Positions 4,513 to 24,812 of a DNA stretch of 29,436 nt are shown one piece after another. Numbering within the stretch: position 1 is the stretch's first letter; each line of letters begins with the position of its first letter. This DNA is from a virus, in IMG/VR virus record IMGVR_UViG_3300048918_000259, positions 1-29,436 of that record; one strand, 5' to 3'. The translations under genes were made by a program, and so were the position numbers. Below the pieces are notes generated by a model, which was given only the letters and a program-made list of their open reading frames with translations, did no database searches and was not told the origin of the DNA.

Positions 4513-4525
4513 GGAGCGCACCTGA

Positions 4526-8148: not shown

Positions 8149-8236
8149 CCACCCACACGATGAAGAAGCCCGGGACCGCCCAGGCCTCGCGATAGAGCCT
8201 GTCGAACTCGTCTTCCGGCGGAAGCGCCTTCTGCAT
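7985..8236 (-). CDS. Possible antisense small membrane protein
   Basis: On the minus strand an ORF starts at ATG 8236 (GTG 8242 is an alternative) behind AGGG. Its first 40 residues, which fill the whole 123-nt gap between two late genes, look protein-like: 'MQKALPPEDEFDRLYREAW', then a hydrophobic 'PGFFIVWVAIV' helix and a basic 'RGFRGLKRI'. The remaining 40 residues lie antisense to the end of the ejection protein gene and look like a shadow frame. No family is recognised, and it may not be a real gene. It resembles the other antisense membrane peptide at 1649-1753 in setting. Confidence 0.28.
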   Translation of the reverse strand: MQKALPPEDEFDRLYREAWAVPGFFIVWVAIVRGFRGLKRIASRSGPPSDPAVARLPGRVLLLPAPSQRSAQAGPRRLPPPAG

Positions 8237-8271
8237 CTCCACACCCTAGCACGTTTTCACGGAGCGACCGC

Positions 8272-9899: not shown

Positions 9900-10060
9900 G
9901 CGGGATCACCACCACCAAGTCCGTGATGTTCGTCGCGGTCAACTCCGCGTCGGGCGGGATCACGCTGACCAAATCGGTGCTGTTCATCGCGTTCAATCCT
10001 ACCGCGGTCGTCAATCCGCGCACCAAGGCCCGCGTCCGCGTCCGTTACGGCCAGGCCTAG
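9896..10060 (+). CDS. 54-residue phage tail-associated small protein with duplicated motif
   Basis: Starting at GTG 9896, which overlaps the previous stop (GTGA), this frame runs 54 codons to TAG at 10058-10060. It encodes two copies of one short unit, 'GITTTKSVMFVAVN' and 'GITLTKSVLFIAFN', joined by a short linker and followed by a basic tail 'NPRTKARVRVRYGQA'. Units of the 'G-I/L-T-x-T/S-K-S/A-V-x-F/Y-x-A' type occur at the ends of phage tail proteins. The overlap and internal duplication support a real gene. Function is unknown. Confidence 0.6.
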   Translation: MSGITTTKSVMFVAVNSASGGITLTKSVLFIAFNPTAVVNPRTKARVRVRYGQA

Positions 10061-10092
10061 CCCCAAGCACATCCACTGAACCCGGAGTCGCC

Positions 10093-11880
10093 ATGCAGCG
10101 AACTCGCCTCGTCGTGGGCCGCAACACACGTACATCCTCAGCCCATGGCCGCGGCCACGTCTCGATGCCGCCACCGGCCCCGACGCTCGGCGCCCTGGCG
10201 CTGACCGGCGCGACGTTCGCCGCCGACGCGCTGGCGGGCGCAGCCATCGGCACGCTGAGCGGCATGACTGCGGGCTCCACGATTGCCGTCTTCCCGGCCG
10301 AGCCTCGGGTATCCCTGGTGGGAACTGGCCTACGGGTGGGCTCCACGGCCGCCAGCGCCGGCACGTTCTCGGTGACCATCCGCGAGACGCTCACCGGAGC
10401 GAGCAACACCCCGCGCGACTCGACGTTCACGATCACGGTTAGCGCCGCCGCTACACCCCCGCCAGTCGTCACGCTGGCCGCTCTGACGCTGAGTGCGTCG
10501 AGCTTCACGGCAGGCGATGCCGAAGGAACCTTCATCGGGGCGATTTCCGGCAAGACGACGGGCTCCACGCTTTCGCTCAGCCCCTCGGACACTCACATCA
10601 AGATCGTCGGCACGAACCTGCTGGTCGGCCCTACATCGTCATCGGCCGGCACGCTCGACATCACCATCCGCGAGACGCTGACGGGCGCCACCAACACGCC
10701 GAAGGACACGGGGTTTTCGCTGACCATCGCCGAAGCGCCGGCCGCTCCCGTCGTCTCGACCTATGGCAACGACGGATCGGGTTCGATCCCGGGCGGGGCG
10801 ACTGTCGTAACGCCGGTCACGCTGGCCGCTGCGATCTCCGGCGCGGCGACCTCGGCGAATCTGGTCCTGGCCCTTGAGCCCGGATCCTATGGCGCCGTCA
10901 CGATCACCAAGGACATGGACAGCGGCAAGACCCTGACGCTGTACGGACAGACGGGCGTCAGCTTCTCGTCGCTCTACCTCAACAGCGCCAACGGGATCGC
11001 GGTCAAGTACGCCAACGTCTCCAGCGTCTCGGGCAACTTCGCCATCCAGGTTTCGGGCGGTAGCCGCCTGACGCTCGAACACATCACCGGCAACCCCGGT
11101 GGGACCTATTCGGGCGTGGGCGTCTCGATCCGCGACAGCGATACGGTGAGCGTCACCAACTGCGATTTCTCGTTCTACGGGACCGCCATAGCGCCGGCAT
11201 CCAGCACCAACGTCACGATCTCCGACAACCGCATAACGGACATCGGCGACAACTTCATCTTCTACAACCTCTGCACTGACCTCGCCATCCTGCGAAACCT
11301 CCTGATGCGGCCCGGCGGCCCGAGTGACGGGCAGCACAGGGACGCCATTCAGGGCGCTTCGGCTGGTACGCCGGACGAGGGCGGCCCGATCCGCAGCGCG
11401 AGGGTGCAGATCGAGAACAACACCTATATCCGCGACAGTGGACTCTCCGTCGTCCAGGGCATCGGGTTCATCGAAAGCACCGACGACCTCTCCCTGCGCT
11501 TCAACGTCGATCACGGAAGCGCCTCGAACGGCATGAGCATCAGCGATTGCAACCGGGTGACCGTCGAGGGCAACCAGGTGCAGGGCCGGACAGACGCGGA
11601 CGGACAGGGCAACGCGGGGAGCGGAAGCCAGATCCTCGCCCGTGGCAACTCCGACACGATCACCTTCCTCAACAACAAGTCCGGCGCCATCGGCTACCTG
11701 ACCAATGCCGAGATCTGCACGAACGTCACGCCGGTTGGGGCCCCGCTCGCAAGCGGAGCGCCCGCCAACACCGTCATCGGCTTCAACGGAAACACCTTCC
11801 TGGCCGATGCGACCGGCATTGCGGACACAGCCGCGCTGCTCACCTTCCTCGCCGCCAACCCTGACAATCCGCGGCCCTAG
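10093..11880 (+). CDS. Beta-helix tailspike-like protein with two tandem N-terminal repeat domains
   Basis: The 595-residue product has three parts. Residues about 31-116 and 127-212 are tandem copies of one domain of roughly 85 residues; shared stretches include 'VTIRETLTGASNTPRD' versus 'ITIRETLTGATNTPKD' and 'GSTIAVFPAEPRVSLVGTGL' versus 'GSTLSLSPSDTHIKIVGTNL'. These look like cadherin/Ig-like beta-sandwich repeats. From about 225 to the end the Asn/Ser/Gly-rich, short-strand pattern ('VSVTNCDFSFYG', 'NVTISDNRITDIGDNFIFY') is a right-handed parallel beta-helix of the pectate-lyase type. Such proteins are tailspike depolymerases or receptor-binding spikes that degrade host polysaccharide. 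Catalytic residues cannot be named. RBS GGAG precedes ATG 10093. Confidence 0.72.
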   Translation: MQRTRLVVGRNTRTSSAHGRGHVSMPPPAPTLGALALTGATFAADALAGAAIGTLSGMTAGSTIAVFPAEPRVSLVGTGLRVGSTAASAGTFSVTIRETLTGASNTPRDSTFTITVSAAATPPPVVTLAALTLSASSFTAGDAEGTFIGAISGKTTGSTLSLSPSDTHIKIVGTNLLVGPTSSSAGTLDITIRETLTGATNTPKDTGFSLTIAEAPAAPVVSTYGNDGSGSIPGGATVVTPVTLAAAISGAATSANLVLALEPGSYGAVTITKDMDSGKTLTLYGQTGVSFSSLYLNSANGIAVKYANVSSVSGNFAIQVSGGSRLTLEHITGNPGGTYSGVGVSIRDSDTVSVTNCDFSFYGTAIAPASSTNVTISDNRITDIGDNFIFYNLCTDLAILRNLLMRPGGPSDGQHRDAIQGASAGTPDEGGPIRSARVQIENNTYIRDSGLSVVQGIGFIESTDDLSLRFNVDHGSASNGMSISDCNRVTVEGNQVQGRTDADGQGNAGSGSQILARGNSDTITFLNNKSGAIGYLTNAEICTNVTPVGAPLASGAPANTVIGFNGNTFLADATGIADTAALLTFLAANPDNPRP

Positions 11881-11882
11881 CG

Positions 11883-12164
11883 ATGAACGAGCGTCAATCC
11901 GTCGCCGGGGCTTACCAGAAGATCGAGAGCCACGAAGAACTGTGCGTCGAGCGCTACGACCGCATCAACGAGAAGCTGGGCGAACTGACGGACGGCGCCA
12001 AGACGCAAAACCGGCTGATGGTGAGCGTTCTCTTGGCCCTGCTCGGCTGGATGGCGCTGCAGCTCTGGAATGGCCAGGTGGTGCATCCGCCGACCCAGAC
12101 CAGCACGCAGACGCAGACCACGACGAACACCCAGACGACGCCGCTCCATGCGCCGGATCGCTAG
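11883..12164 (+). CDS. XhlA-like small membrane protein with coiled coil (lysis-region type)
   Basis: A 93-residue protein with a helical, heptad-like N-terminus ('YQKIESHEELCVERYDRINE') followed by one membrane helix at about 45-64 ('LMVSVLLALLGWMALQLW') and a polar Thr/Gln/Pro-rich C-terminal tail. The amphipathic helix plus single transmembrane helix resembles the haemolysin XhlA family that works with holins and endolysins in many prophages. It starts 2 nt after the tailspike stop with no strong ribosome binding site. The next gene, a lipoprotein, begins inside its 3' end in another frame. That nesting resembles spanin pairs, though the canonical pair lies at 15150-15702. Confidence 0.6.
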   Translation: MNERQSVAGAYQKIESHEELCVERYDRINEKLGELTDGAKTQNRLMVSVLLALLGWMALQLWNGQVVHPPTQTSTQTQTTTNTQTTPLHAPDR

Positions 12165-12306
12165 CGTTCTCTTCCTCCTCCTTGTTGCGGGTTCCTGCAC
12201 GACGATAGGAACGACCATGAGTGGGAATTGGGGATCTGATTACCGCTGGGTTCATGGGGTTGGGGGGCATGTGATGCCGGGGCCGGATGGACGGCAGGTT
12301 GTCTAG
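12148..12306 (+). CDS. Small lipoprotein nested over the end of the membrane-protein gene
   Basis: A 52-codon frame starts at ATG 12148 inside the previous gene's 3' end. It opens with a basic n-region and hydrophobic stretch 'MRRIASVLFLLLVAGSC', giving a lipobox-like AGS-Cys17 cleavage site, followed by a Gly/Trp-rich 35-residue mature peptide ('SGNWGSDYRWVHGVGGHVMP'). This is the architecture of a small outer-membrane lipoprotein such as an o-spanin. Canonical Rz1 is encoded elsewhere in this window, so it may be an accessory lysis or superinfection-exclusion lipoprotein. Confidence 0.55.
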   Translation: MRRIASVLFLLLVAGSCTTIGTTMSGNWGSDYRWVHGVGGHVMPGPDGRQVV

Positions 12307-12311
12307 TTCAT

Positions 12312-12343
12312 CCCGGGGCAGGGCCTAGCGCCGAGGTGTCCGC
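12312..12343 (-). repeat. Dispersed bipartite element, copy a
   Basis: CCCGGG (12312-12317) and, on the minus strand, GCGGACACCTC are separated by about 17 nt. The copy fills the gap between two plus-strand genes, and its GAGG serves as ribosome binding site for ATG 12345. Confidence 0.55.
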
Positions 12344-12344
12344 C

Positions 12345-12536
12345 ATGACCGACCCCATCGATCCTTCCGCCGACACCCTGCGCGCCGCCCTCGATCTCCT
12401 GAACTCCGCCGAGAGACAGAAGCGCTATCGCACCCGCCGCCGGACGTGGGCGTGGAAGATCGGTCGCCCCTATTCCGAAGACCTCGACAAGCCCCTCCCA
12501 GCCGTCGTTGACGGTGTTGACCCGGAGAACGGATGA
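12345..12536 (+). CDS. Small hypothetical protein
   Basis: A 63-residue polar protein ('TDPIDPSADTLRAALDLLNS', then a basic 'RQKRYRTRRRTWAWKIGRPY'). GAGG lies 8 nt before ATG 12345, favouring it over the in-frame GTG at 12336; this GAGG is part of the dispersed repeat copy at 12312-12343. The stop overlaps the metallophosphoesterase start in an ATGA. No family recognised; the basic patch could bind nucleic acid. Confidence 0.6.
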   Translation: MTDPIDPSADTLRAALDLLNSAERQKRYRTRRRTWAWKIGRPYSEDLDKPLPAVVDGVDPENG

Positions 12537-13591
12537 CCGCTCGCAAAGGGCAATCGACCACTGGCCTCAAGCCCCGCGAACTCGACGCGGCGACCAGGGC
12601 CGTCCTGGAGGAGGGCAACGTCACGGCTGCCGCCCGTAAGCTCGGGATACCGCGAGCGACCCTCCAACATCAGCTCAAGATCGCGGTGAGGGCGGGCTAC
12701 ACCGTCCCTCGCACGCAATCCAACCCGTCCCGCTGGCGACCCGGCGCGGAGATCGTTGCCGCCCGCAAAGCTGAGTTCGAACGGGTCAGGAACTCCGGCC
12801 CCAATCGCGACGGCAACGTGATCTTCCGGCCGGACGATGGGCCGTTCATGCTGATCATGCTGGGCGACGAACACCTCGACAATCCAGGGACCGACCTCAA
12901 CCTCTGGGAGCGCTGGATCGGCTACCTGAACCGTGCCAAGCATATCACCGGCTGGTCGCTGGGCGACGTGCTGGACTCCTGGCTGAAGCCGCTCGCCCAC
13001 CTCTACGCCAATTCCGAGACGCCGGCCCCCGAAGGCTGGATTTTGCTGCAACACTACCTCGACCAGATCGGCTCGGACCTCGACTGCTCTGTGGCCGGAA
13101 ACCATGACAAATGGGCCGGCGCGAACGACGTGCTGGGAATGCTCATGGAGCAACATGGTGTCATGCACCGCGCCGACTCCCTGCGCGTCGCCTACCGCTG
13201 CCCGAACGGGCGCGAGATCACCGTCAACGCCCGCCACACCTGGCCGGGCCGGTCGATGTGGAATGAGGTCCACTCGATCAAGCGCGCCGCCCGCATGGGG
13301 ATCAGGGATACGATCCTCGTGGGCGGACATACCCACGTCTCGGGCGAAAGCACCGAACGCGACCCGATGAACGGCAAGATATCGTTCTGCTACCAGGTCG
13401 CGTCGTTCAAGCTGGTGGACGACTACGCCGACACGCTGGGCTTTCTGGACCGCAACCTGTCGCCCGCCGTCGCCCTGGTGATCGACCCGCGCCGGGCTGA
13501 CAACGACCCTGAGCTGGTCAAGCACTTCTACGATCCCGCGCCGGCCGCCGACTACCTGGCGTTCCTGCGGCGCAAGGCCAAGGCCGCCTAG
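12533..13591 (+). CDS. HTH plus calcineurin-like metallophosphoesterase
   Basis: This 352-residue protein joins an N-terminal helix-turn-helix of Fis-like type at about 17-50 ('VTAAARKLGIPRATLQHQLK') to a calcineurin-like phosphoesterase domain from about 100. All metal-site motifs are visible: 'LGDEH' (Asp112, His114), 'LGDVLD' (Asp145), 'AGNHDKW' (Asn190-His191-Asp192), 'ARHTWPG' (His235) and 'GGHTHVSG' (His266, His268). The family hydrolyses phosphomonoesters or diesters, including nucleic acids, with two metal ions. It lies between tail and lysis genes, where a DNA nuclease or phosphatase role in host takeover or packaging is conceivable. Its start overlaps the previous stop. Confidence 0.82.
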   Translation: MTARKGQSTTGLKPRELDAATRAVLEEGNVTAAARKLGIPRATLQHQLKIAVRAGYTVPRTQSNPSRWRPGAEIVAARKAEFERVRNSGPNRDGNVIFRPDDGPFMLIMLGDEHLDNPGTDLNLWERWIGYLNRAKHITGWSLGDVLDSWLKPLAHLYANSETPAPEGWILLQHYLDQIGSDLDCSVAGNHDKWAGANDVLGMLMEQHGVMHRADSLRVAYRCPNGREITVNARHTWPGRSMWNEVHSIKRAARMGIRDTILVGGHTHVSGESTERDPMNGKISFCYQVASFKLVDDYADTLGFLDRNLSPAVALVIDPRRADNDPELVKHFYDPAPAADYLAFLRRKAKAA

Positions 13592-13621
13592 CCGAACCCC
13601 TCCACAATCTGCCGAGGTTCC

Positions 13622-14350
13622 ATGCGAGCTGTCCCAGACATCGCCGCGAAATTCGTGCGCGCTCACGAAGGCTGTTCCCTCAGGGCCTATCAGGACTCCG
13701 GCGGCGTGTGGACCGTGGGCTACGGCCACGTAGGACCCGAGATCCACAAGGGCCTGATCGTCCCGCAAGCCGCCGCTGACCAGTACCTCAACGAGGATCT
13801 GGGGATTGCCGCCAAGCGCCTAAACGGCGTGGTGGACGAGGCCGTGATCCTCTCCCTCACCGACAACCAGTACGCCGCCCTGATCTCGTTCGTCTTCAAC
13901 CTCGGGGCCGATCCGTCGTGGACGATCTGGAAGCGCCTGAACGCGCGCAAGTACGATCAGGTCCCCGGCGAGATGTCCCGCTTCGTCAACGCCGGCGGGA
14001 AGAAGGTCCAAGGCCTCGTCAACCGCCGGGCCGCCGAAGTGCAGCTCTGGTCGAACGGTGAGCCCGGGACGGACAACGAAGTGCTGTCCAGCGCCCAGAC
14101 GCGCAACTGCCCCACACCGCCGGTTCCTGGCTCGTCAGGGAGCCTTGTGGGGCGCTGCGTGGCCTACGGGACGGGTGCGGTCGCGTCCATCGGGGTCGCC
14201 GCCCAGCAAGTCTCCTCGGCCGTCCAGCCCTACGCCGACAAGAGCCCCATCGTCGCCAAGGTCGTCTCGGTCATGGCGCTCCTGGGGGCGGGGGCCGTGG
14301 TCGTGGGCCTGGTCCTGTCGTGGCTCAAGCATCGTGAGGAGAAGCGTTGA
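13622..14350 (+). CDS. Endolysin: T4-type lysozyme (GH24) with C-terminal membrane anchor
   Basis: The first 150 residues are a T4-lysozyme-type muramidase. The Glu-8aa-Asp-5aa-Thr triad is intact as Glu16 ('AHEGCSLRAY'), Asp25 ('QDSGG') and Thr31 ('VWTVGYGH'). Further family marks are 'LTDNQYAALISFVFNLG' and 'QGLVNRRAAEVQLW'. Unlike T4 lysozyme, the protein goes on for about 90 residues, with a Cys/Pro-rich linker, an Ala/Gly-rich segment and a clear membrane helix at about 213-236 ('VMALLGAGAVVVGLVLSWL') followed by a basic end. There is no N-terminal signal. A membrane-tethered lysozyme suggests controlled release at lysis. RBS GAGG lies just before ATG 13622. Confidence 0.85.
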   Translation: MRAVPDIAAKFVRAHEGCSLRAYQDSGGVWTVGYGHVGPEIHKGLIVPQAAADQYLNEDLGIAAKRLNGVVDEAVILSLTDNQYAALISFVFNLGADPSWTIWKRLNARKYDQVPGEMSRFVNAGGKKVQGLVNRRAAEVQLWSNGEPGTDNEVLSSAQTRNCPTPPVPGSSGSLVGRCVAYGTGAVASIGVAAQQVSSAVQPYADKSPIVAKVVSVMALLGAGAVVVGLVLSWLKHREEKR

Positions 14351-14697
14351 CCCTAGCTCTCTGCCTGATCGCGCTCGCCCTGGCTCTCCAGCCGGTGATC
14401 TGGGCGCTCGTGTTTTTCATCGCCCTCCAGCTCGCGTCCGCTGGAGACGGCACACCCCCGACGCAACCAAGTGAGGATCAAATGTCTCAAGCTGTGAAAG
14501 ACGCCTTTGCTGCCTATGTGGCTTTTCGGGATGCTGGTGAAGCAAAGGCCGTAGCCGATGCTGTCGCCGCCGAACAGGCCAACCATCAAGCCGAGATCGA
14601 CGCTGCGAAGGCTGCTGGCGCTCAAGCCGAGTCCGACGAGGACGTGGCGGTGATCGCTGCGGCGATGCCGGCGCCTGAACCCGCGCCCGAGGGCTGA
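14347..14697 (+). CDS. Holin-like membrane protein candidate with helical C-terminal domain; start uncertain
   Basis: Read from TTG 14347 (GAGGAG 5 nt upstream, TTGA overlap with the endolysin stop), this is a 116-residue protein: a hydrophobic N-terminus 'LIALALALQPVIWALVFFIA' (one or two membrane helices), a Pro-rich linker and an Ala/Glu-rich helical tail. An internal ATG at 14481 has its own GAGG seven nt upstream and would give only the soluble 72-residue part. Both products could be made. Position directly after the endolysin suggests a holin or holin regulator, but no family signature was recognised. Confidence 0.5.
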   Translation: MTLALCLIALALALQPVIWALVFFIALQLASAGDGTPPTQPSEDQMSQAVKDAFAAYVAFRDAGEAKAVADAVAAEQANHQAEIDAAKAAGAQAESDEDVAVIAAAMPAPEPAPEG

Positions 14698-14700
14698 TCG

Positions 14701-14808
14701 ATGGGGTGGGCCATCGTCGCGGGCTTAGCCGTCTGGGCGGCGATGGTGGCCCTGCCTCTCGTGCTTATCGTGGTGCTGGTCCGAGGCTGGCTGACGGGCA
14801 AGTGGTAG
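14701..14808 (+). CDS. 35-residue single-pass membrane peptide in the lysis region
   Basis: ATG 14701 lies 7 nt after GAGGG and opens a 35-codon frame ending in TAG at 14806-14808. The peptide is one long hydrophobic helix ('VWAAMVALPLVLIVVLV') with a short 'RGWLTGKW' basic C-terminus. Size, location between endolysin and spanins, and ribosome binding site support a real gene. It could be a holin, pinholin or antiholin-like peptide. Confidence 0.5.
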   Translation: MGWAIVAGLAVWAAMVALPLVLIVVLVRGWLTGKW

Positions 14809-14970
14809 GCGCTGCGGGCCGGACGCTATCCCGGCTAAAGGGCGATCTGGCAGGAACTTAATCCCGGTGTGGTCCACGCCCCTCGACCCCACGATGCGGT
14901 TCTGCTTTCACCGCCGCCGCAGCCCCTGAACAATGCCAGGACATCGTTGACTCTGCAAGGGAAATTCGGC
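14809..14970. other. 162-nt intergenic stretch in the lysis region
   Basis: No convincing gene. It contains TCCCGG at about 14830 and again at 14863, perhaps remnants of the dispersed CCCGGG element but too degenerate to call. A TTGACT lies about 25 nt before the next start codon and could be a promoter -35 box, but no good -10 is visible. Confidence 0.3.
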
Positions 14971-15153
14971 ATGATAGACCCCAATGGCTACCCGGCCACG
15001 GACCCGACGCTGCTAGACCGCTTGGTTGATGCGGCGCGCAACTATCGGATGACTCCGCAGGAGGTGTTCGATCAGCGCGTGAGCTTCGTCTACGGGCAGA
15101 TGAACGGCGAGGTCACGAAGGAGTGGGTCCGCGAACAGTTGGCGGCCCGATGA
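14971..15153 (+). CDS. Conserved small phage hypothetical protein
   Basis: A 60-residue soluble protein with ATG 14971 behind AAGGGA; the longer in-frame GTG start at 14869 has a non-protein-like extension. The motif 'QRVSFVYGQMNGEVTKEWVR' matches a pattern I recognise from many small proteins next to lysis genes in alphaproteobacterial prophages ('QRxSFxYGN...VTkexVr'). The role is unknown. Its stop overlaps the Rz start in an ATGA (15150-15153). Confidence 0.65.
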   Translation: MIDPNGYPATDPTLLDRLVDAARNYRMTPQEVFDQRVSFVYGQMNGEVTKEWVREQLAAR

Positions 15154-15554
15154 TAAAGGCGTTCCTCGCGGCCTACGCGCCTTGGCTCTACGGCGGCCTC
15201 GCGGCGATCATCCTTGGCCTCGCCGGTTGGCTCTACCTCAAAGGCCGCCACGACGCCGACGCGGCCAGCAAGGCCCGAGCGGCCGCCGCCACTCAAACCC
15301 GCCAAGCCCAAATCACCCAAGCCACAAACACCGCGGTCGATCACTACACCCACGACGTGACGATTTTGCACGACCGAACGGAGAAAGCCGCAGATGCCAT
15401 CCGTAAGGCCCCAACAGCTCAAGACGCTCTCGATCCTGGCTATCGCGCTTCTCTCTGCGATCAGCTTGCAGGGGTGCGCGGAACAGCCGTTTGCATCCCA
15501 GACGATCACCATTCCGTCGATGCTTCGGGAGGCCTGCCCGGCGCCGGTTTCTAA
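15150..15554 (+). CDS. Rz: Rz-like inner-membrane spanin
   Basis: The 134-residue product has a short N-terminus, one membrane helix at about 11-31 ('WLYGGLAAIILGLAGWLYLK') and a long periplasmic helical, Ala/Gln/Thr-rich coiled coil. This is the topology of i-spanins, which join an outer-membrane lipoprotein to fuse the two membranes in the last step of Gram-negative lysis. The start of the candidate partner (15394) lies inside this gene in a +1 frame, the classic Rz/Rz1 nesting. ATG 15150 is preferred to the in-frame upstream 15123 because of the ATGA overlap with the previous gene. Confidence 0.78.
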   Translation: MIKAFLAAYAPWLYGGLAAIILGLAGWLYLKGRHDADAASKARAAAATQTRQAQITQATNTAVDHYTHDVTILHDRTEKAADAIRKAPTAQDALDPGYRASLCDQLAGVRGTAVCIPDDHHSVDASGGLPGAGF

Positions 15555-15702
15555 CCTCTCCAGCCACGGTGATGAAGGCGCGCTCCTGATCCAGACGGAA
15601 AGCGCTCGCGTCGAGTGCGACAAGCGCAGAGGGGCCTTGGTGGAGATCATCGACGGGTCGAACCCGAAGGCCGCGAAGCCCTGGTGGAAGATCGGGCGCT
15701 AG
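15394..15702 (+). CDS. Rz1: Rz1-like outer-membrane spanin lipoprotein
   Basis: Starting at ATG 15394 within Rz, with GGAGAAAG upstream, the 102-residue protein has a lipoprotein signal ('TLSILAIALLSAISLQGC') with lipobox LQG-Cys28. The mature part has Pro and two further Cys ('EACPAPVSNL', 'ARVECDKRRG'), and the C-terminus extends beyond the end of Rz. It should sit in the outer membrane and bind Rz in the periplasm to complete lysis. It is longer than lambda Rz1 (60 residues) but usual for overlapping-type Rz1. Its TAG shares a CTAG with the stop of the convergent minus gene. Confidence 0.75.
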   Translation: MPSVRPQQLKTLSILAIALLSAISLQGCAEQPFASQTITIPSMLREACPAPVSNLSSHGDEGALLIQTESARVECDKRRGALVEIIDGSNPKAAKPWWKIGR

Positions 15703-15905
15703 CGCTTCAACAGATCCGGTAGCTTCGCCACGTTCAGCGTGATCCGCCTAGCCAAGTCCCGCGTAAGCCTCGGGCTTCGGTCTGTTCCAACGATGGGTTG
15801 GTCTCTGAAATAGGTGTACGCGAACCTGTGGCCTTCAGCGTCTTCTATCCAGTAGGCGTCTTCGTTGTTGTTTATGGTCCATGGTTGGGGGAGGCGATTG
15901 GTCAT
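15699..15905 (-). CDS. Small conserved hypothetical protein
   Basis: A 68-residue soluble protein. Its core 'DAEGHRFAYTYFRD' followed by 'SPRLTRDLARRITLNVAKLP' fits a short protein type I recall from many Rhizobiales and related genomes and their prophages ('DxxGxxLAYxYfed...LTrdEARRIAxNIAKLPeLL'). No function is known. ATG 15905 follows a CCCCGGGG that belongs to the dispersed repeat (copy at 15906-15936). It is convergent with Rz1, the two stops sharing CTAG, so there is no room for a terminator between the late and leftward units. Confidence 0.65.
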   Translation of the reverse strand: MTNRLPQPWTINNNEDAYWIEDAEGHRFAYTYFRDQPIVGTDRSPRLTRDLARRITLNVAKLPDLLKR

Positions 15906-15936
15906 CCCGGGGCCTAGCTAACGACCTGTGGTGTCC
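15906..15936 (-). repeat. Dispersed bipartite element, copy b
   Basis: Minus-strand order: GGGACACCACAGG, spacer with the stop of one gene (TAG), then CCCGGG 1 nt before the next ATG (15905). The element forms the whole junction between two minus genes. Confidence 0.55.
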
Positions 15937-16094
15937 CGGCTTGCTGCGGTCGCTATATCGCGCCGCCTCAACTCTGCTGCCGCGGCTTCGGAGTTTGAGT
16001 ACACGGCGCGGCCAGTGATCAGGTCTTCGAAGCGCGGTCCCAAGAAGCGCTGAAGTTCGTCGTCGGACATAGTGGCAAAAGGCTTCTGTTCCAT
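15918..16094 (-). CDS. Small hypothetical protein between two dispersed-repeat copies
   Basis: A 58-residue soluble, charged protein ('SDDELQRFLGPRFEDLITGR', then 'AAAAELRRRDIATAAS'). ATG 16094 lies 5 nt after GGGAGGA, supplied by the repeat copy at 16102. The last codons (Arg-Asp-Thr-Thr-Gly-Arg-stop) are formed by the next copy at 15906-15936. No family recognised. Confidence 0.55.
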   Translation of the reverse strand: MEQKPFATMSDDELQRFLGPRFEDLITGRAVYSNSEAAAAELRRRDIATAASRDTTGR

Positions 16095-16101
16095 GGTTCC
16101 T

Positions 16102-16131
16102 CCCGGGGCAGAGCTTAGCCCTGCTGTGGCG
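16102..16131 (-). repeat. Dispersed bipartite element, copy c
   Basis: Minus strand: GCGCCACAGCAGG, spacer with stop TAA, then CCCGGGAGGA five nt before ATG 16094. The first box is degenerate; the second acts as ribosome binding site. Confidence 0.5.
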
Positions 16132-16330
16132 CGGCCGGACGCTGCGCTAAGGCGAGTTGGGCGCTGTATTGGGCCGTGCTACCAGGGTAGAACGGGAGTT
16201 GGTAAAAGCAGCCTTGTGATGTCACCCCATAGCCAGGGGGTGGAATCCGCGCGATGGCGGCGCGTACCTCAGCGATTTCCTCCCTGAGGCTGGCAATTTC
16301 CGCGCGCATCGCTCGCAACTCTTCGTCCAT
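16115..16330 (-). CDS. Small coiled-coil protein, unknown function
   Basis: A 71-residue protein with a heptad-patterned N-terminal helix ('LRAMRAEIASLREEIAEVRA') and a Pro/Gln-rich, probably disordered C-terminus. ATG 16330 is preceded by a weak TAGGA. Its TAA (16115-16117) lies within the spacer of the repeat copy at 16102-16131. The coiled coil suggests a self-associating accessory protein. Confidence 0.55.
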   Translation of the reverse strand: MDEELRAMRAEIASLREEIAEVRAAIARIPPPGYGVTSQGCFYQLPFYPGSTAQYSAQLALAQRPAAPQQG

Positions 16331-16426
16331 CTCTAAATCCTACCTTCAACCGGAGCAGGGGGCTCCGACTATCCCATGGCGCCCATAGAGGTCCATCCCG
16401 GATCAGCTTCAACGCCCGTCTTGGCC

Positions 16427-16807
16427 CTACTTGGGGCCATAGAGCGGCGTGAAATATCGGCAGTCGCGTAGATAGCGCTCGACCGTCTCGGGGCCGTACT
16501 TGGCGCCCCACATGTCCGTGCGTCGGCGGCGCTCCATATCCCGCATCCGGCGCTTCCTTCCGCACTCACCAGCACTGTATTGCGTCCAGCCCTTGGTCGC
16601 GCACGACATCAGCAACCAGTCGTGCATCGGCGCATCATACTTGTCGAACCGGCGCACGCTCGGAAAGGTCTTCGTCGCGGCGGCCTTCCGAAGATCACGG
16701 ATGCGATCCAGGGCATTGGCCGGCTGCTTCCCAGCGAACTTGCGGTAGAGCCACCAGCAGGGCGGCGAAAGCGGCGTGCGGTGCGGCTGGCGAAAGCTGC
16801 TGCTCAT
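16427..16807 (-). CDS. Basic hypothetical protein
   Basis: A 126-residue Arg/Lys-rich protein with several Cys and Trp residues ('SPPCWWLYRKFAGKQPANAL', 'WTQYSAGECGRKRRMRDMER'). ATG 16807 follows GGAGGA by 7 nt and is a better start than the upstream in-frame codon at 16822. The basic central patch may bind nucleic acid. No family recognised. A possible phage operator lies 24 nt upstream (16831-16847). Confidence 0.55.
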   Translation of the reverse strand: MSSSFRQPHRTPLSPPCWWLYRKFAGKQPANALDRIRDLRKAAATKTFPSVRRFDKYDAPMHDWLLMSCATKGWTQYSAGECGRKRRMRDMERRRRTDMWGAKYGPETVERYLRDCRYFTPLYGPK

Positions 16808-16830
16808 CCCGAATCCTCCCACGAAAAGCC

Positions 16831-16847
16831 CCTCAGGGCCAGTGAAC
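16831..16847 (-). promoter_or_regulatory. Possible distant repressor operator
   Basis: Read on the minus strand the site is GTTCACTGGCCCTGAGG. It keeps both outer arms of the immunity-region operators (GTTCAC ... TGAG, consensus GTTCACATTTCNTGAGC) with the same 17-bp length but a different centre. It lies upstream of the minus gene starting at 16807, so a repressor bound here could control these genes during lysogeny. Confidence 0.35.
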
Positions 16848-16860
16848 TCTGCCTATCCAA

Positions 16861-16887
16861 GCGGGCCATGTAGCCCGCAGACGGGCT
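16861..16887. terminator. Overlapping hairpins, possible terminator or attenuator
   Basis: GCGGGC (16861-16866) pairs with GCCCGC (16873-16878), and AGCCCG (16872-16877) pairs with CGGGCT (16882-16887). The two stems exclude each other, as in attenuators. No T-run follows on either strand, so intrinsic termination is weakly supported. Confidence 0.25.
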
Positions 16888-16958
16888 GGCTCAAAATGAA
16901 CCTAAACCCTTGAGTTCCTTTCCTGTCTCTCGCGGTGAGAGGGGAGGGAATAGGTCCT

Positions 16959-16990
16959 CCCGGGATTTGTCACGATCAGGCTGAGGTGCC
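16959..16990 (-). repeat. Dispersed bipartite element, copy d (orphan)
   Basis: Minus strand: GGCACCTCAG, spacer, then GTGACAAATCCCGGGAGGAC. The second half is identical over about 20 nt to copy h. No start codon follows at the expected distance, so this copy is not maintained as a ribosome binding site. Confidence 0.6.
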
Positions 16991-17014
16991 GTGCGCAGAG
17001 AGCGGAGGGCTAAG

Positions 17015-17182
17015 TTACCAGCCGTGGTCAACCGTGTCGTCAGGCGAGCGGTCGGCTGACATCGCGCCGAAAACAAACCCCAGCGCCAGGACGCCGAGCA
17101 GCCCCACGAATAAGGCTGCGACGTGATAGCCCGACACCCAGAGGAAGCCGCCCAGCGCGATCATGATTAGGGAAACAAGCAT
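17015..17182 (-). CDS. Small two-helix membrane protein next to attP
   Basis: A 55-residue protein with two hydrophobic segments ('MLVSLIMIALGGFLWVSGY' and 'AALFVGLLGVLALGFVFGAM') and an acidic C-terminus. ATG 17182 has AGAAGG about 10 nt upstream and is preferred to a TTG at 17248. It could be the last gene before the attachment site and would lie beside the rebuilt tRNA gene after integration. Function unknown; superinfection exclusion is a possibility for such terminal membrane genes. Confidence 0.5.
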   Translation of the reverse strand: MLVSLIMIALGGFLWVSGYHVAALFVGLLGVLALGFVFGAMSADRSPDDTVDHGW

Positions 17183-17211
17183 CAGGATTCGCCTTCTTAT
17201 CCACAGGCCGC

Positions 17212-17224
17212 GCGCATTATGCGC
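17212..17224. promoter_or_regulatory. 13-bp palindrome on the left side of attP
   Basis: GCGCATTATGCGC is a perfect inverted repeat around a single central base. The same sequence on the other strand (GCGCATAATGCGC) occurs at 17408-17420, on the other side of the att core. It may bind an excisionase, integrase or host factor during recombination. Confidence 0.4.
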
Positions 17225-17266
17225 AGGGTCCCCGGAGGGGAATTTCAACTAAGTCATTGAAAAGAG

Positions 17267-17313
17267 TGGTGCCACGACAGGGATTCGAACCCTGGACCTC
17301 AGCCTTACCAAGG
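17267..17313 (-). other. attP: Attachment site: 3' half of a tRNA-Thr(GGT) gene (attP)
   Basis: On the minus strand the sequence from 17313 to 17267 reads as a tRNA from the anticodon loop to CCA: loop TTGGTAA (anticodon GGT, Thr) closed by CC/GG, the T-arm CAGGG-TTCGAAT-CCCTG, the acceptor strand TCGTGGC, discriminator A and CCA. The 5' half (acceptor, D-arm) is missing: bases to the right of 17313 do not pair and no GCCACGA acceptor strand is found. A 3' tRNA fragment of this kind is what tyrosine integrases carry in attP so that integration rebuilds the host tRNA. With this orientation, integration would place the rebuilt tRNA at the lysis-gene side and integrase at the far end. Confidence 0.8.
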
Positions 17314-17333
17314 ACGGGTCCCACAACGGCTAG

Positions 17334-17380
17334 TGGCGACATTGGCGACACTCACACAACATCTTGCGACACTGGCGACG
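17334..17380 (+). repeat. Integrase arm-type direct repeats beside attP
   Basis: Four copies of an octamer, TGGCGACA at 17334 and 17343, TTGCGACA at 17364 and TGGCGACG at 17373, form two pairs with 9-bp spacing inside each pair and 30 bp between pairs. Tandem short direct repeats beside a core site are typical of arm-type sites bound by the N-terminal domain of tyrosine integrases. Part of this stretch also encodes the C-terminus of the small gene after integrase. Confidence 0.5.
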
Positions 17381-17624
17381 GTGTTCCTGTTTCGCCCCCG
17401 CCAAGGTGCGCATAATGCGCTATTCGCTCGTAGTTGCTGATAAGATAGCTTCGATGGATGGTCGTCTGGGCGCCGTAGCGTCCGTCAGGATAAACGGCGT
17501 TCACGTAGAACAGGTCTGGGTCGCCTTTGTGCGCTCGCATGACTTGGCGCCCGACAAGCGGCTTGGTGATCCGCGCTCGCGCGAGTGGTCGCCAGATACT
17601 TCCGATTTCGACTTCATCGCTCAT
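17352..17624 (-). CDS. Small hypothetical protein downstream of integrase
   Basis: A 90-residue protein ('VEIGSIWRPLARARITKPLV', 'VYPDGRYGAQTTIHRSYLIS') with a small SH3/KOW-like beta-barrel look: 'GSIWRP' at the start, then strands ending in a 'DGR' turn, as in other tiny phage proteins. Its ATG overlaps the integrase stop (ATGA), so it is co-translated with integrase. Its C-terminal codons run into the arm-type repeats near attP. Function unknown. Confidence 0.6.
   Translation of the reverse strand: MSDEVEIGSIWRPLARARITKPLVGRQVMRAHKGDPDLFYVNAVYPDGRYGAQTTIHRSYLISNYERIAHYAHLGGGETGTPSPVSQDVV
17408..17420. promoter_or_regulatory. 13-bp palindrome on the right side of attP
   Basis: GCGCATAATGCGC is the mirror copy of the palindrome at 17212-17224. 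It lies inside the coding sequence of the small gene after integrase ('RIAHYAHL'), so its match to a non-coding copy across the att core is not explained by protein constraint. Confidence 0.4.
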
Positions 17625-18634
17625 CCTCGCCTCCCAGCGATATTGTCCACCGCGCCCCGCAGATAGTCAGGCGCGAACATAGCATAGTGGCGGCGGGTCG
17701 TTTCCACGGTATCCCCGAGCATGGTGGCGACCTCATCAAACGAAGCGCCCCCCTGGAGCGCCCAGGACGCCGCTGTACGCCTCAGGTCGTGGCGATGGGC
17801 GTCCTCCAGCCCCGCGAGCCGGCAAGCCCTTCCATAGGCCTTGCGCACGCTCTGCACGGGCAACCCCTCCCACTCGACCACATAGCCCGATGGCCCCGCG
17901 ACCTTCCGGGCCGCCGTCAGGATCGCCCTCAGGGGCTCGTTCATCGGTATGGGCGCCGTCTTCTTGTTGGCGCTCTGGCCGGGCCTGTACCGGACCATGC
18001 CCGCGTCGAAGTCCACGCGATCCCAGGTCAGCTTGAGGATATGCTTTCCCCTGGCCGCCGTGCTGATCGCCAGCGCCAGGAACACCCGCAGGTGCAGGGG
18101 GCTGGCGTGGAAGTAGAGGCGGGCGAACTCCTCACGGCTGAGGTATCGGTCGCGGGGTTCGCCTTCTCCGGGTAGGTCGATCTTGGGCTCGTCGTTGAGC
18201 CAGCCGTGGCGCTTGCCGTACTTGAAGGCCTGGCGCAGGAACCGCAGCTCCTTGCTGATCGTCGGGTCCATGACGCCGGCCTTGCGGCGCTGGGCGACGT
18301 AGGACTTCACGCCCATGGCCGTGACCATCGAGGGCGGCAGAAGCCCGAACTGCGCCTTGATGTGGTTGAGGCTGTTCTTGATGGCCTTCGGGTAATGGAC
18401 GGTTGGATCTTCCTCGCGGTCCTTGAGGTAGGCGTCGCAGAGCTGTTCGACCGTGAAGCGCTCCGGCGGCGCGTCGAGGATCGCCAGCTTTTCGGCGAGA
18501 TACCTGCGGGCCTCTACCTTGTCCGTCGCGCCCGTAGATTGACGATGCGAGCGTCCCGCCTCGCTCCAGATGACGTACCATCGGGCGGATTGCTTGCCGT
18601 TGATGACGGGTCGTTCGAGTCGGTAGTCGGGCAT
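17621..18634 (-). CDS. int: Tyrosine recombinase, phage integrase
   Basis: The 337-residue protein has an N-terminal arm-binding region, a SAM-like core-binding domain ('FTVEQLCDAYLKDREED' onward, about 60-145) and a catalytic domain. Catalytic residues visible are Arg195 ('TAARGKHILKLTW'), a Lys at 224/225, His282 and Arg285 ('HRHDLRRTAASW') and Tyr317 ('TTRRHYAMF'). The residue usually His or Trp after 'MLG' is Asp308, with His316 next to the Tyr. The enzyme should recombine attP at 17267-17313 with the host tRNA-Thr gene and needs the excisionase for release. Its 5' end overlaps the excisionase-like gene by 121 nt, which can limit integrase translation. Confidence 0.93.
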   Translation of the reverse strand: MPDYRLERPVINGKQSARWYVIWSEAGRSHRQSTGATDKVEARRYLAEKLAILDAPPERFTVEQLCDAYLKDREEDPTVHYPKAIKNSLNHIKAQFGLLPPSMVTAMGVKSYVAQRRKAGVMDPTISKELRFLRQAFKYGKRHGWLNDEPKIDLPGEGEPRDRYLSREEFARLYFHASPLHLRVFLALAISTAARGKHILKLTWDRVDFDAGMVRYRPGQSANKKTAPIPMNEPLRAILTAARKVAGPSGYVVEWEGLPVQSVRKAYGRACRLAGLEDAHRHDLRRTAASWALQGGASFDEVATMLGDTVETTRRHYAMFAPDYLRGAVDNIAGRRG

Positions 18635-18789
18635 AGCTTGGCCTCGAAAGCCTCTAGCGCTGTGGGGTGGACGCGGATGATCTTCGGGCCAGGGCGCACG
18701 GCCTGCAACTCGCCGGTCGCGACCCAGCGCTCGACGGTGCGGGGGTTGACCTTGAAGTGGTCGGCAACGTCTTTCACGGTCATGTACAT
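18514..18789 (-). CDS. xis: Excisionase-like HTH (AlpA/MerR-type) protein
   Basis: A 91-residue protein whose first 50 residues are a winged helix-turn-helix of the AlpA/HTH_17 type: 'MTVKDVADHFKVNPRTVERW' then 'GELQAVRPGPKIIRVHPTAL'. This is the common form of phage excisionases and recombination directionality factors. The C-terminus is polar and basic. It overlaps integrase by 121 nt in another frame, so both share one transcript. Role inferred from domain and position; it may also act as a transcription regulator. Confidence 0.72.
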   Translation of the reverse strand: MYMTVKDVADHFKVNPRTVERWVATGELQAVRPGPKIIRVHPTALEAFEAKLCPTTDSNDPSSTASNPPDGTSSGARRDARIVNLRARRTR

Positions 18790-18826
18790 GTTTGGCTCTC
18801 GGCCTGTCTGAAGGAGGCTCTTTGGG

Positions 18827-19117
18827 TCATGGAAGGGTTGAGGGTTTCCCGGGGCCTAGTTCGGCATCGGAGGTGTCCGCGATGGCCCCGCATTGGACAG
18901 CCAGCGGCACATCGCCCAGCGGCGAGTCCTCAAGCGGCAGAAGCCCGCTTTCGAGGGCGCAATAGAGGCATACGGGGACGAGTTTCGCGGCCTCCTTCGG
19001 TTGGGCAACGTCCCGCTGGCAGGTCCGGCAAGTGGCGTACTGCACGGCCTCGCTATCGATCCAGCCGAGCGTCCATGGCCAACACGCCACCTGCCTTGAG
19101 TGAACGAGCGTCAGCAT
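18827..19117 (-). CDS. Small zinc-ribbon-like protein
   Basis: A 96-residue protein with two CxxC pairs, Cys30-x2-Cys33 ('ATCRTCQRD') and Cys50-x2-Cys53 ('PVCLYCALE'), forming a probable zinc ribbon. ATG 19117 is chosen because further upstream the frame is a shadow of the membrane-protein gene, whose stop it overlaps. The C-terminal tail 'AIADTSDAELGPGKPSTLP' is encoded by a copy of the dispersed repeat (18848-18880). Confidence 0.6.
   Translation of the reverse strand: MLTLVHSRQVACWPWTLGWIDSEAVQYATCRTCQRDVAQPKEAAKLVPVCLYCALESGLLPLEDSPLGDVPLAVQCGAIADTSDAELGPGKPSTLP
18848..18880 (-). repeat. Dispersed bipartite element, copy e
   Basis: Minus strand: GCCATCGCGGACACCTCCG, spacer, CCCGGG. It encodes the C-terminal 'AIADTS...GPGKP' of the zinc-ribbon gene. 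Confidence 0.6.
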
Positions 19118-19368
19118 CCCGGCGGGCCTTCCGACCTTCGCTGAGCGTCTCGCTCGCTGTCGCGCGACCGCTCGTAGGCTCCCGACAGGTACATCGGGCC
19201 GAAAACTGCGAGCATTGCGACAGCGCCGAAGACCGCCCCTCGCCAACCCGTTCGTGCGCCGGCCGCGGCGCCCATCAGCGCGAAGGCCAAGAGCGCGATG
19301 GTGCCGGGGTGTTCGCCGTAGCCCTCGACATAGCCGCAGCCGCGGACCGTGTGATGCAACCACCTCAC
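19111..19368 (-). CDS. Small two-helix membrane protein
   Basis: An 85-residue protein with two membrane helices ('TIALLAFALMGAAAGARTGW' and 'GAVFGAVAMLAVFGPMYLSG') and a charged C-terminus. GTG 19368 forms a GTGA overlap with the stop of the 28-codon frame upstream, so I prefer it to an in-frame GTG at 19392. The pattern resembles small membrane proteins seen in alphaproteobacterial prophages; function unknown. Confidence 0.6.
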   Translation of the reverse strand: MRWLHHTVRGCGYVEGYGEHPGTIALLAFALMGAAAGARTGWRGAVFGAVAMLAVFGPMYLSGAYERSRDSERDAQRRSEGPPGC

Positions 19369-19451
19369 GGCGCGCGCCCGTCCGACTGGCACGGCCTATC
19401 CGATGCGGCTCTTGGGCCGTCATATCCGAGGTTGGTACATGAGGAATCCAT
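19365..19451 (-). CDS. 28-residue peptide with strong ribosome binding site, possible leader peptide
   Basis: ATG 19451 is preceded by an excellent GGGGGAGGAA. The frame encodes a polar peptide ('MDSSCTNLGYDGPRAASDRP' plus eight residues) and stops in a GTGA overlap with the membrane-protein start. The pairing of a strong ribosome binding site with a stop-start overlap suggests that its translation drives the next gene. Confidence 0.45.
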   Translation of the reverse strand: MDSSCTNLGYDGPRAASDRPCQSDGRAP

Positions 19452-19492
19452 TGTTCTTCCTCCCCCTCCTAAGGGCCTCACGGCTTCGCGTG

Positions 19493-19507
19493 TGAGATCA
19501 GATCTCA
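19493..19507. promoter_or_regulatory. 15-bp perfect palindrome at the end of a gene
   Basis: TGAGATCAGATCTCA has two 7-bp arms around one base and overlaps the stop codon of the gene at 19505-19828. A second imperfect inverted repeat (AACCCTCTAGAGGG) lies just beside it at about 19513. They could be a protein-binding site or, without a T-run, a weak terminator. Confidence 0.35.
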
Positions 19508-19828
19508 TTCACAACCCTCTAGAGGGGGTTCGTCCCGGGCCAGGTCGTTCTCTCCGGAGGTGTCCGCGATGGCCGACACGGAGACCTTCACCGGAATGAC
19601 GCGGAAGCGGCTGGTGTCGTGTGGCGGCTTCGGGAAGGTCCGCCAGTAAGCGACTACGTAGTCTCGCGCGGCGCGTTCCGTCTCGAACGTCTGCCAGGTC
19701 CAGAAATCGCCGTAGGGGTTCAGGATGCCGTACGCGTTGCCGCGGATCGGCGACGGGCGCTTGGCGGTGCGGCTGCGGACACCTCCCACCGAAGGGGCGT
19801 GGTCCCGGGCGGAACTATCAGACTTCAT
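19505..19828 (-). CDS. Hypothetical early protein ending in repeat-encoded tail
   Basis: A 107-residue protein. The middle ('YGILNPYGDFWTWQTFETER', 'DYVVAYWRTF', 'FRVIPVKVSVS') looks like a compact alpha/beta domain found in small phage early proteins. The tail 'AIADTSGENDLARDEP' is made by the repeat copy at 19534-19567. RBS GGAAGGGG precedes ATG 19828, which overlaps the upstream gene by 11 nt. No family named. Confidence 0.6.
   Translation of the reverse strand: MKSDSSARDHAPSVGGVRSRTAKRPSPIRGNAYGILNPYGDFWTWQTFETERAARDYVVAYWRTFPKPPHDTSRFRVIPVKVSVSAIADTSGENDLARDEPPLEGCE
19534..19567 (-). repeat. Dispersed bipartite element, copy f
   Basis: Minus strand: GCCATCGCGGACACCTCCG, spacer, CCCGGG. 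The first 19 nt are identical to copy e. It encodes the C-terminal 'AIADTSGENDLAR' of the host gene. Confidence 0.6.
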
Positions 19829-22875: not shown

Positions 22876-23189
22876 GAGTTCATCCCAGAGTTGCCCGTCT
22901 TGCTAGGCTTCGCCGTCGCATCACCAGGCGCTGTGCGTTCTGAAGGGAGCGGTTTCCACTCGCGCGGCTGCGCCGAGCGCACGCCATGTTCGTTCACCGC
23001 CCAGCAGACGCCATCGCTCCAGCAGGGCGGGGCCGCGTCTTCATCTCGCGCCGCCCAGCCGCCACAGGATCCACTCTCGTTCTCGTAGGCGCCCGCGTTC
23101 CAGAACGCCGCGAACTCCCGCCGGCCGGCCTTGACCATCACCATCTTGCCGGTGAGCGGTGCTGACTTGATCGGACGCCAAGCGCTCAC
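22872..23189 (-). CDS. DUF551-like protein
   Basis: A 105-residue protein opening with 'MSAWRPIKSAPLTGKMVMVK' and followed by 'FAAFWNAGAYENESGSCGGW' and 'REWKPLPSE'. The 'W.PI.sAP..G..vlv' start and the later 'W.PLP' are the marks of DUF551-type small proteins common in phage early operons. Function unknown. It overlaps both neighbours by 4 nt. Confidence 0.7.
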   Translation of the reverse strand: MSAWRPIKSAPLTGKMVMVKAGRREFAAFWNAGAYENESGSCGGWAARDEDAAPPCWSDGVCWAVNEHGVRSAQPREWKPLPSERTAPGDATAKPSKTGNSGMNS

Positions 23190-23566
23190 CGCTCCACCAC
23201 ACGGCCATCGACCGTCCTCTTGCGGGTTGGATTCCAGAACGAGCGGCGCTTGACCTCTTTCGGCCTGGTTAGCCGTTCCTGATGGTGGGCCTTGGTGATC
23301 CGCGGCCGGTCCTCGTCCAGCGTCTTGCGCTCATGGCAGCGCTGCTTGTGCATGGGGTAGAGGTTCTCCAGGCTGTCGTCGGCGGACAGCTCGCGGGGCA
23401 GCTTGTGGTCGTATTCGACGGTGAGCCCGGCTTGCGCCACAGGCTTTCCGCACCACCAGCAGATGCCACCCTCGCGGTTCCATGCCGCGACCTTCATGGC
23501 CTTGGACGGCTGGGGGCGATCCGGGACGATCACGCGCGGGCGGGACATGAGCGGGTTGTGGGTCAT
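23186..23566 (-). CDS. HNH endonuclease
   Basis: A 126-residue protein with a zinc-type HNH fold: 'GGICWWCGKPV' (Cys36, Cys39), 'VEYDHKLP' (catalytic His54), 'SLENLYPMH' (Asn68) and 'KQRCHERKT' (Cys77, His78). HNH enzymes cut DNA. A free-standing HNH next to NinB and a Rad52-like protein may help recombination or packaging, or act as a homing enzyme. No further DNA-binding domain is visible. The stop-start overlaps are ATGA-type on both sides. Confidence 0.85.
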   Translation of the reverse strand: MTHNPLMSRPRVIVPDRPQPSKAMKVAAWNREGGICWWCGKPVAQAGLTVEYDHKLPRELSADDSLENLYPMHKQRCHERKTLDEDRPRITKAHHQERLTRPKEVKRRSFWNPTRKRTVDGRVVER

Positions 23567-24006
23567 GCCGCAGCACCGCCAGCGAGGTTCTGACCCCCGC
23601 TGGCGCCCTGCTGCTCCTCGTGAAACCGGACGTCATGTTCAGCCCCGAACGCGGCGATCAGCTCGATAAGTTCTGCCACCTCGGGAACCGTCATCTGGCT
23701 CGTGTGCATCCCCAGAAGGACAAACCCGCCATTGATCCCCGGCACGACGTCCAGGCCGTGCTTGGCGCTCCTGAGGGCTGCCGTGAAGATGTCCTTCCAC
23801 GCCTCGACGTCGCGCTTGGCCCCGCTCCATTCGACCTGGGCGGCGACGTCGGTGATCATGGCGTGAAGCTTCTGGTTCTGAGGCCCGGTGCGCTTCAGCC
23901 GGGAGAACGTCACCACAGCGTCAGCCGGGGCGTTCGCCAGGAAGGTCGCGGCGCGTTGGCGCTCTCGCTTGGCGCCCAGGATGAAGGTGACGGGGGTTGC
24001 CATCAC
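23563..24006 (-). CDS. ninB: NinB-like recombination protein
   Basis: A 147-residue protein with the NinB family core 'KRTGPQNQKLHAMITDVAAQ' followed by 'VEWSGAKRDVEAWKDIFTAA'. NinB (lambda Orf) binds single-stranded DNA and SSB and replaces host RecFOR functions in phage recombination. The start is at or near the first ATGs. Gene order HNH, NinB, Rad52-like is that of a phage homologous recombination module. Confidence 0.88.
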   Translation of the reverse strand: MMATPVTFILGAKRERQRAATFLANAPADAVVTFSRLKRTGPQNQKLHAMITDVAAQVEWSGAKRDVEAWKDIFTAALRSAKHGLDVVPGINGGFVLLGMHTSQMTVPEVAELIELIAAFGAEHDVRFHEEQQGASGGQNLAGGAAA

Positions 24007-24812
24007 GCAGCCTGTACGTGACCCGAGTTCCCGGCCACGCGGCCAGGACTTGCTCCACCAATCGCGCCACGAAATCCGGCGTCGAGATCAGCCGCCTCGC
24101 TGGCGATGTGTTCCTCGCCGACGATCTCCTCCAACCGTAGCTCAAGCATATTGTGGATGCTGTCGAGCCATGACGTGGGGAGGTGAGCGGTGTAGTCGTC
24201 GAAGTTGGTGTGCCAGTCCTTCAGGCCAGCGCGGTCGCATTGGGCGATGTCGGCCTTGATCTTGGCGTCGTCACCGTCTCGCTTGGCTTGCGCCGAGGAC
24301 TTGCGGCCGGTCGTGGGCTTTACGGGGGGCAGTGGCGCGGAGGGTTCGGCGCGAACCTGCGCTGTGCGCTGGTCCAGCAGGTTCCGCAGCTTGCCGTACT
24401 CGCTGTCCTTGATGACGGAGGTCCGCCCGCGCTGTTCCAGCTCCACCCAGGGCGACGTTAGATCGTACAGGTACCGTCCGATGCCCCAATTCACGGCGGC
24501 CCGCTTAAACGCTGTCGAAAGCGAGCCCTTCTCGGCTTCAACGTCAGTGTCGCCCGCGCCGTCCGACTTCCAGATCCATTCGTCGCCGACCTTGACGCCG
24601 ATCTCGCACGTCGTGGTCCCGTTGACGTGGGGATGACGGCGCTGCCAGCCGCCAGGACCGCACACAGCGTCCAGCCGCTCCATCACGTCGCGGGCGTCGA
24701 TGTAGGCCAGGGCCATGCCGCGGCTCTTGTCGGCGGTCGTGGAGCCCACCCGCCAGGAAATGCGGTCGGCAGGGAAGGGCGCGGCCAGATGGTCGAAGAT
24801 GCCTTGGGTCAT
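24003..24812 (-). CDS. Rad52-family single-strand annealing protein
   Basis: A 269-residue protein whose first 140 residues carry the Rad52/Rad22 fold signature: 'RISWRVGSTTADKSRGMALA', 'YIDARDVMERLDAVCGPGGW' and 'GSLSTAFKRAAVNWGIGRYL'. These proteins form rings that anneal complementary single strands. The C-terminal 120 residues are polar and variable and may contact SSB or other partners. It precedes ninB in the operon, with a 4-nt overlap. No exonuclease partner is visible in this window. Confidence 0.88.
   Translation of the reverse strand: MTQGIFDHLAAPFPADRISWRVGSTTADKSRGMALAYIDARDVMERLDAVCGPGGWQRRHPHVNGTTTCEIGVKVGDEWIWKSDGAGDTDVEAEKGSLSTAFKRAAVNWGIGRYLYDLTSPWVELEQRGRTSVIKDSEYGKLRNLLDQRTAQVRAEPSAPLPPVKPTTGRKSSAQAKRDGDDAKIKADIAQCDRAGLKDWHTNFDDYTAHLPTSWLDSIHNMLELRLEEIVGEEHIASEAADLDAGFRGAIGGASPGRVAGNSGHVQAA

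Follow-up and report, generated by a model that had tools for sequence, protein, structure and literature searches.

A tRNA-Thr(GGT) 3' half as the probable attP site of an undescribed P22-like podovirus of Caulobacteraceae

Anatomy of the attachment site

In the tRNA-gene type of phage attachment site, attP contains the 3' portion of a tRNA, which begins at the anticodon loop and extends to the end of the tRNA, the integrase gene adjoins attP, and integration restores the tRNA gene; Williams is said to have set apart, in 2002, an anticodon-loop class of such sites. As a rule, attP carries a replacement sequence for the tRNA gene (PMC10111431). The locus described here lies in a viral contig of 29,436 nucleotides (IMG/VR record IMGVR_UViG_3300048918_000259), which we analyzed at its full length and refer to as the window. 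Compared with the tRNA-gene type its anatomy is fully typical; what sets it apart is the target, tRNA-Thr(GGT) in Caulobacteraceae, and a new integrase. The second described system to which it compares is that of the P22-like podoviruses: the terminase, portal, scaffold and coat of L004, a syntenic relative of the window, are of P22 type, whereas in the window the late operon has its lysis genes at the att end, and the host group differs. Among named phage records, the nearest portal is that of Vibrio phage VvAW1 (40% identity to the L004 portal).

The attP core (17267-17314, minus strand) is the 3' half of a tRNA-Thr(GGT), from the anticodon loop to CCA. On the minus strand, 17267-17313 reads CCTTGGTAAGGCTGAGGTCCAGGGTTCGAATCCCTGTCGTGGCACCA, which opens with CCTTGGTAAGG, closes with CACCA and comprises the anticodon loop TTGGTAA (anticodon GGT), the variable region, the T arm, the acceptor strand and CCA. 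The block identical to host DNA is 48 nt long, namely these 47 nt plus the T at 17314, which also matches the hosts, and it starts just before the anticodon loop. The original prediction held that only this 3' half is present, without a 5' half, and this is what we found: ARAGORN detected no complete tRNA in the whole window, and the 5' half of the host tRNA is absent from it, because its best match there has 9 mismatches in 28 nt. When 16400-18700 was compared with phage records by blastn, the sole match was to the tRNA-Thr of Caulobacter phage CcrSC (85%).

Lysis genes and integrase plus early genes were predicted to lie on opposite sides of the core, and the annotation agrees. A tyrosine recombinase (phage integrase) gene of 337 aa (17621-18634, minus strand; PF00589, E 5.3e-15; phrog_1, E 2.7e-50) is read towards the core and lies 307 bp from it. 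The protein has an HDLR motif, with RRHY near the C-terminus, and is about 35% identical at most to any integrase in named phage records. The end of its gene and the P' arm are overlapped by a small ORF of 90 aa (17352-17624, minus strand) that has no family match and is replaced in relatives. Further along this side, the early operon encodes a Rad52-type recombination protein (24003-24812, minus strand; PF04098, E 3e-17) adjoined by NinB (23563-24006; PF05772, E 1.3e-37). The early region also contains two HNH endonuclease genes (23186-23566 and 27551-28072), of which the latter also matches NUMOD4 weakly, in the manner of homing endonucleases. On the lysis side we found an endolysin gene (13622-14350, plus strand; phrog_7, E 1e-45) and a weak Rz1-like (spanin) match (15394-15702, plus strand), overlapped by an ORF at 15123-15554 with a weak DUF2570 match; both weak matches are below the Pfam gathering cut-offs.

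Three other IMG/VR contigs (L002, L003 and L004) carry the exact core and an integrase 90-92% identical to that of the window. Across these relatives the attP module, consisting of P arm, core and P' arm (17196-17420), is one conserved block outside which most sequence diverges. Specifically, 17196-17420 is 92.5% identical to L002/L051 and 17265-17420 is 98.7% identical to L004; outside the integrase gene, divergence covers most of the sequence in L002 and L003 and, in L004, the surroundings of the site. The only two sites of the near-palindrome GCGCATWATGCGC in the window, against 0.08 expected, lie on the lysis side (GCGCATTATGCGC, 17212-17224) and the integrase side (GCGCATAATGCGC, 17408-17420) of the core. 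Each of the four phages has exactly two copies, only at att, and none was found elsewhere in the loci fetched. The pair flanks the core, one copy per side, in the window, L002 and L004, and in L003, which is cut off at the core, both copies are on the integrase side. In addition, a pair of 14-nt direct repeats, GCGACATTGGCGAC and GCGACACTGGCGAC (17336-17379; repeat sequence GCGACAYTGGCGAC), lies on the integrase side with starts 30 nt apart, and is also present in L004 with the same 30-nt spacing. The direct repeats are candidate arm-type sites of the integrase, and near-palindromes and direct repeats alike may be arm-type or accessory-protein sites. We further observe that the near-palindromes at 17212-17224 and 17408-17420 bracket the attP module and lie where the conservation among phages that otherwise differ comes to an end. 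It is conceivable, though we regard it as rather doubtful, that integrase and attP together constitute a self-contained cassette with GCGCATTATGCGC and GCGCATAATGCGC as its borders, which moves as a unit between dissimilar Caulobacteraceae phages, the palindromes binding a dimeric accessory factor and not the integrase.

The host gene and the proposed integration

We scanned 84,980 species genomes for the exact 47-mer and found it in 13 contigs, whose record titles name Phenylobacterium, Caulobacteraceae or Alphaproteobacteria. A tRNA-Thr(GGT) gene sharing these 47 nt, for which the original prediction had proposed a search of host genomes, thus exists in 13 genomes, each time as the exact 3' end of a complete tRNA-Thr(ggt) gene of 75 nt. 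Because all 13 exact occurrences sit in such complete genes, the match to real tRNA genes is evidently not due to chance. Moreover, the core with at most 2 mismatches is present in 31 of 390 Caulobacteraceae genomes, and we confidently predict a host group of Caulobacteraceae, of the Phenylobacterium type.

We propose that the adjacent tyrosine integrase would recombine attP with the host tRNA-Thr(GGT) gene, the crossover most likely falling inside the anticodon loop, where the 48-nt block has its 5' edge. Integration would rebuild an intact tRNA at the lysis-gene end from the host 5' half and the phage 3' half; the tRNA would remain intact because the phage brings the 3' half with CCA. The host's own 3' half would be displaced to the other end of the prophage, beside the integrase. 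Joined in silico, host 5' half and window core (attL) indeed give an intact tRNA-Thr, and neither attR (window upstream sequence joined to host downstream sequence) nor attP (the window itself) contains one. The activity of the integrase, the position of the crossover and the arm sites are predictions from sequence.

Two Phenylobacterium-type genomes contain a second, partial copy of the tRNA-Thr (L114, G009:C13 12581-12627; L115, G011:C105 3539-3585). Upstream of these copies lies a different sequence that both genomes have in common, and the copies are probably the termini of a further family of elements at this tRNA.

Relatives, integrated copies and the form of the genome

The relative that bears most directly on the configuration of the site is L004 (IMGVR_UViG_3300005548_000004; 42,048 bp). 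To either side of the core its genes are syntenic with those of the window: tail and lysis genes occupy one flank, integrase and early genes the other. L004 opens and closes with the same 120 bases, and because of these identical ends its assembled sequence is best read as circular, about 41.9 kb in length, with the core in its interior and no host DNA, consistent with headful packaging and circularly permuted ends. Both ends of the window map into L004 in the same circular order; the window, a linear fragment, lacks a terminal repeat. Judged against L004, it covers about 29.4 kb out of a genome of roughly 42 kb, and the missing stretch is expected to hold the head and replication genes. Indeed, the part of L004 beyond the range of the window, which does not reach such genes, encodes P22-type terminase, portal (phrog_156), scaffold, coat (phrog_283), head closure and primosomal proteins. 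We also note a complete tRNA-Gly(tcc) in the lysis region of L004 (13272-13346) that is absent from the window; a Pfam search found no repressor at the divergent promoter region of L004. Together, the synteny of the relatives and the circular L004 show the core flanked by phage DNA to the left and to the right, as in attP and not as in attL or attR, and lend strong support to the attP configuration originally proposed for 17267-17313. We consider it very probable that this site serves as attP in a temperate P22-like podovirus, so far undescribed, whose hosts are Caulobacteraceae of the Phenylobacterium type, that the contig stems from a non-integrated, circular or circularly permuted form, and that the integrase would act on attP and the tRNA-Thr(GGT) gene of the host.

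A host genome in which one side of this region is chromosomal, which would contradict the attP configuration, was not found. Specifically, the integrase of the window had no match at E <= 1e-10 in the 13 attB genomes, and no close integrase was present in 390 genomes of the family, a small sample with one genome per species, where matches were 32-37% identical. The roughly 4-kb loci around these matches contained no tRNA-Thr(GGT).

Attachment sites attL and attR at tRNA-Thr are seen for a different P22-like prophage, in genome G243. Here two copies of the core lie 55.6 kb apart, one within an intact tRNA-Thr and the other partial, starting at CATTGGTAAGG about 86 bp past the end of a tyrosine integrase gene. 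From the tRNA, the order is endolysin, head closure, coat, scaffold, portal, replication protein and RusA, which is the gene order of the L004 circle cut at the core; like L004, the prophage runs from lysis through head and replication to integrase. Genome G248 (L091) has the uninterrupted empty site, contiguous with both outer flanks of G243 (93.7% identity over 820 nt upstream and 88.6% over 1.5 kb downstream). These junctions identify another P22-like phage that uses this tRNA-Thr and next to which host DNA starts at the core when integrated, just as the original prediction expected of a prophage. The portal of the G243 prophage is 46-48% identical to that of L004, its integrase is hardly similar to that of the window, and its core starts about 2 nt later. 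Because the two integrases are hardly similar, the common integration site would be either convergent or very old.

We weighed three other explanations. The first follows from the original prediction, which allowed for either a free, circularised or virion genome or two tandem prophages: the circular L004 speaks for the former, and sequence alone gives the same picture for a free or virion genome and a tandem junction. If prophages lie in tandem, or if replication forms concatemers, the window could be the inner junction of head-to-tail copies, chromosomal yet attP-like, given that the inner junction of a tandem lysogen equals attP in sequence; a circular assembly such as L004 could stem from a tandem array as well. 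We consider this improbable: every sample would require an additional event, the core is crossed without host DNA in two independent long contigs (the window and L004), and no tandem arrangement was seen in the occupied host genome G243. Less probable still is an assembly artefact, in which a sample containing only prophage had the lysis end at attL joined to the integrase end at attR across the 48 nt of the core. Exactly this core is common to both prophage ends, and L003 (IMGVR_UViG_3300009093_000785) stops 4 nt past it, as expected at a branch of an assembly graph, so that this may be a branch point. Against this, the window, L002 and L004 all cross the core with the same arms, and L004 closes far from the core, by a 120-bp overlap that is longer than the core. 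The least likely reading, that the fragment is no attachment site and instead represents a phage tRNA gene in decay, or an RNA that derives from a tRNA and has a role of its own, has in its favor that phages such as L004 do carry tRNA genes, but we give it next to no credence in view of a fragment identical to the host 3' half and ending in the anticodon loop, its place beside an integrase, the conserved flanking arms, an RNA fold of the attP strand that is not unusually stable (z -0.95), and the use of the same tRNA by the G243 prophage. A further observation on L003 is that its integrase-side arm is partly duplicated at 4300-4997, with a 53-nt repeat 490 nt apart.

Dispersed repeats, chromosomal head cassettes and implications

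A dispersed repeat had been predicted to occur on both sides of the core, and it does. The pattern TCCCGGGN{8,28}GAGGTGTC has five exact matches in the window against 0.02 expected, one on the lysis side (12311) and four on the integrase side (18847, 19533, 20021 and 25897), and it is kept in the relatives L002-L004. In a wider form reading GGACACCTC...CCCGGGAGGAC, the repeat is found in one orientation at 12311, 15905, 16101, 16958, 18847, 19533, 20021 and 25897 and in the other at 19775, 26325 and 28059; at some sites it lies directly ahead of a start codon, and the copy at 20021 contains the perfect palindrome TGACACCTCAGGTGTCA. Cluster K mycobacteriophages have start-associated sequences with upstream inverted repeats, and the repeat of the window is similar to these in layout (PMC3203893).

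Outside the window, we observed a P22-like head cassette in chromosomes of Caulobacteraceae. Portals of the L004 type were matched in 48 of 390 genomes of the family and are 35-42% identical to the phage portal, except in G243 and G311 (54%). By portal match, about 46 of the 390 genomes hold one cassette each, which is largely colinear and comprises terminase, portal, scaffold, coat, adaptor, two small genes and the virion protein phrog_3287. This layout was established from G014, G015, G373, G386, G013 up to its contig end, and 20 more loci; in G020 and G021 only portal and terminase were matched, and contig ends cut some loci. Examples are L130 (G014, 3547-18140) and L146 (G316, 4463-19576), with L133, L136, L139 and L141-L160 as further loci. 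Relative to the G014 copy, identity is mostly 65-82% for portal, terminase and coat and often lower for the smaller genes, and the aligned parts of the cassette genes contain no stops, with dN/dS near 0.3 (NG86; a rough value, as dS is saturated). In the loci inspected the cassette is intact, no integrase was seen, and host genes adjoin it; five genomes have it close to tRNA-Thr(GGT). In G316 its start immediately adjoins a histidine kinase of the host and an acyl-CoA dehydrogenase, a lysozyme is present, and an integrase is likewise not seen. In G013, G014, G015, G373 and G386, P22-like portals occur 10-15 kb downstream of tRNA-Thr; we had considered these as integrated relatives, and dropped this reading: there is no second core copy, order and neighbors are different, and the genes belong to the conserved chromosomal cassette. 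These observations suggest a vertically kept, integrase-less P22-like head cassette that is a candidate domesticated prophage or gene-transfer-agent-like system; a literature search found no report of such a cassette in Caulobacteraceae.

The integration biology described here is well known, and the phage itself is undescribed. With the proposed attP, an anonymous metagenomic phage contig gains a host group, an integration site and a temperate lifestyle. Moreover, an integrase/attP pair with a named target may be of use in genetic tools for Caulobacteraceae and Phenylobacterium.
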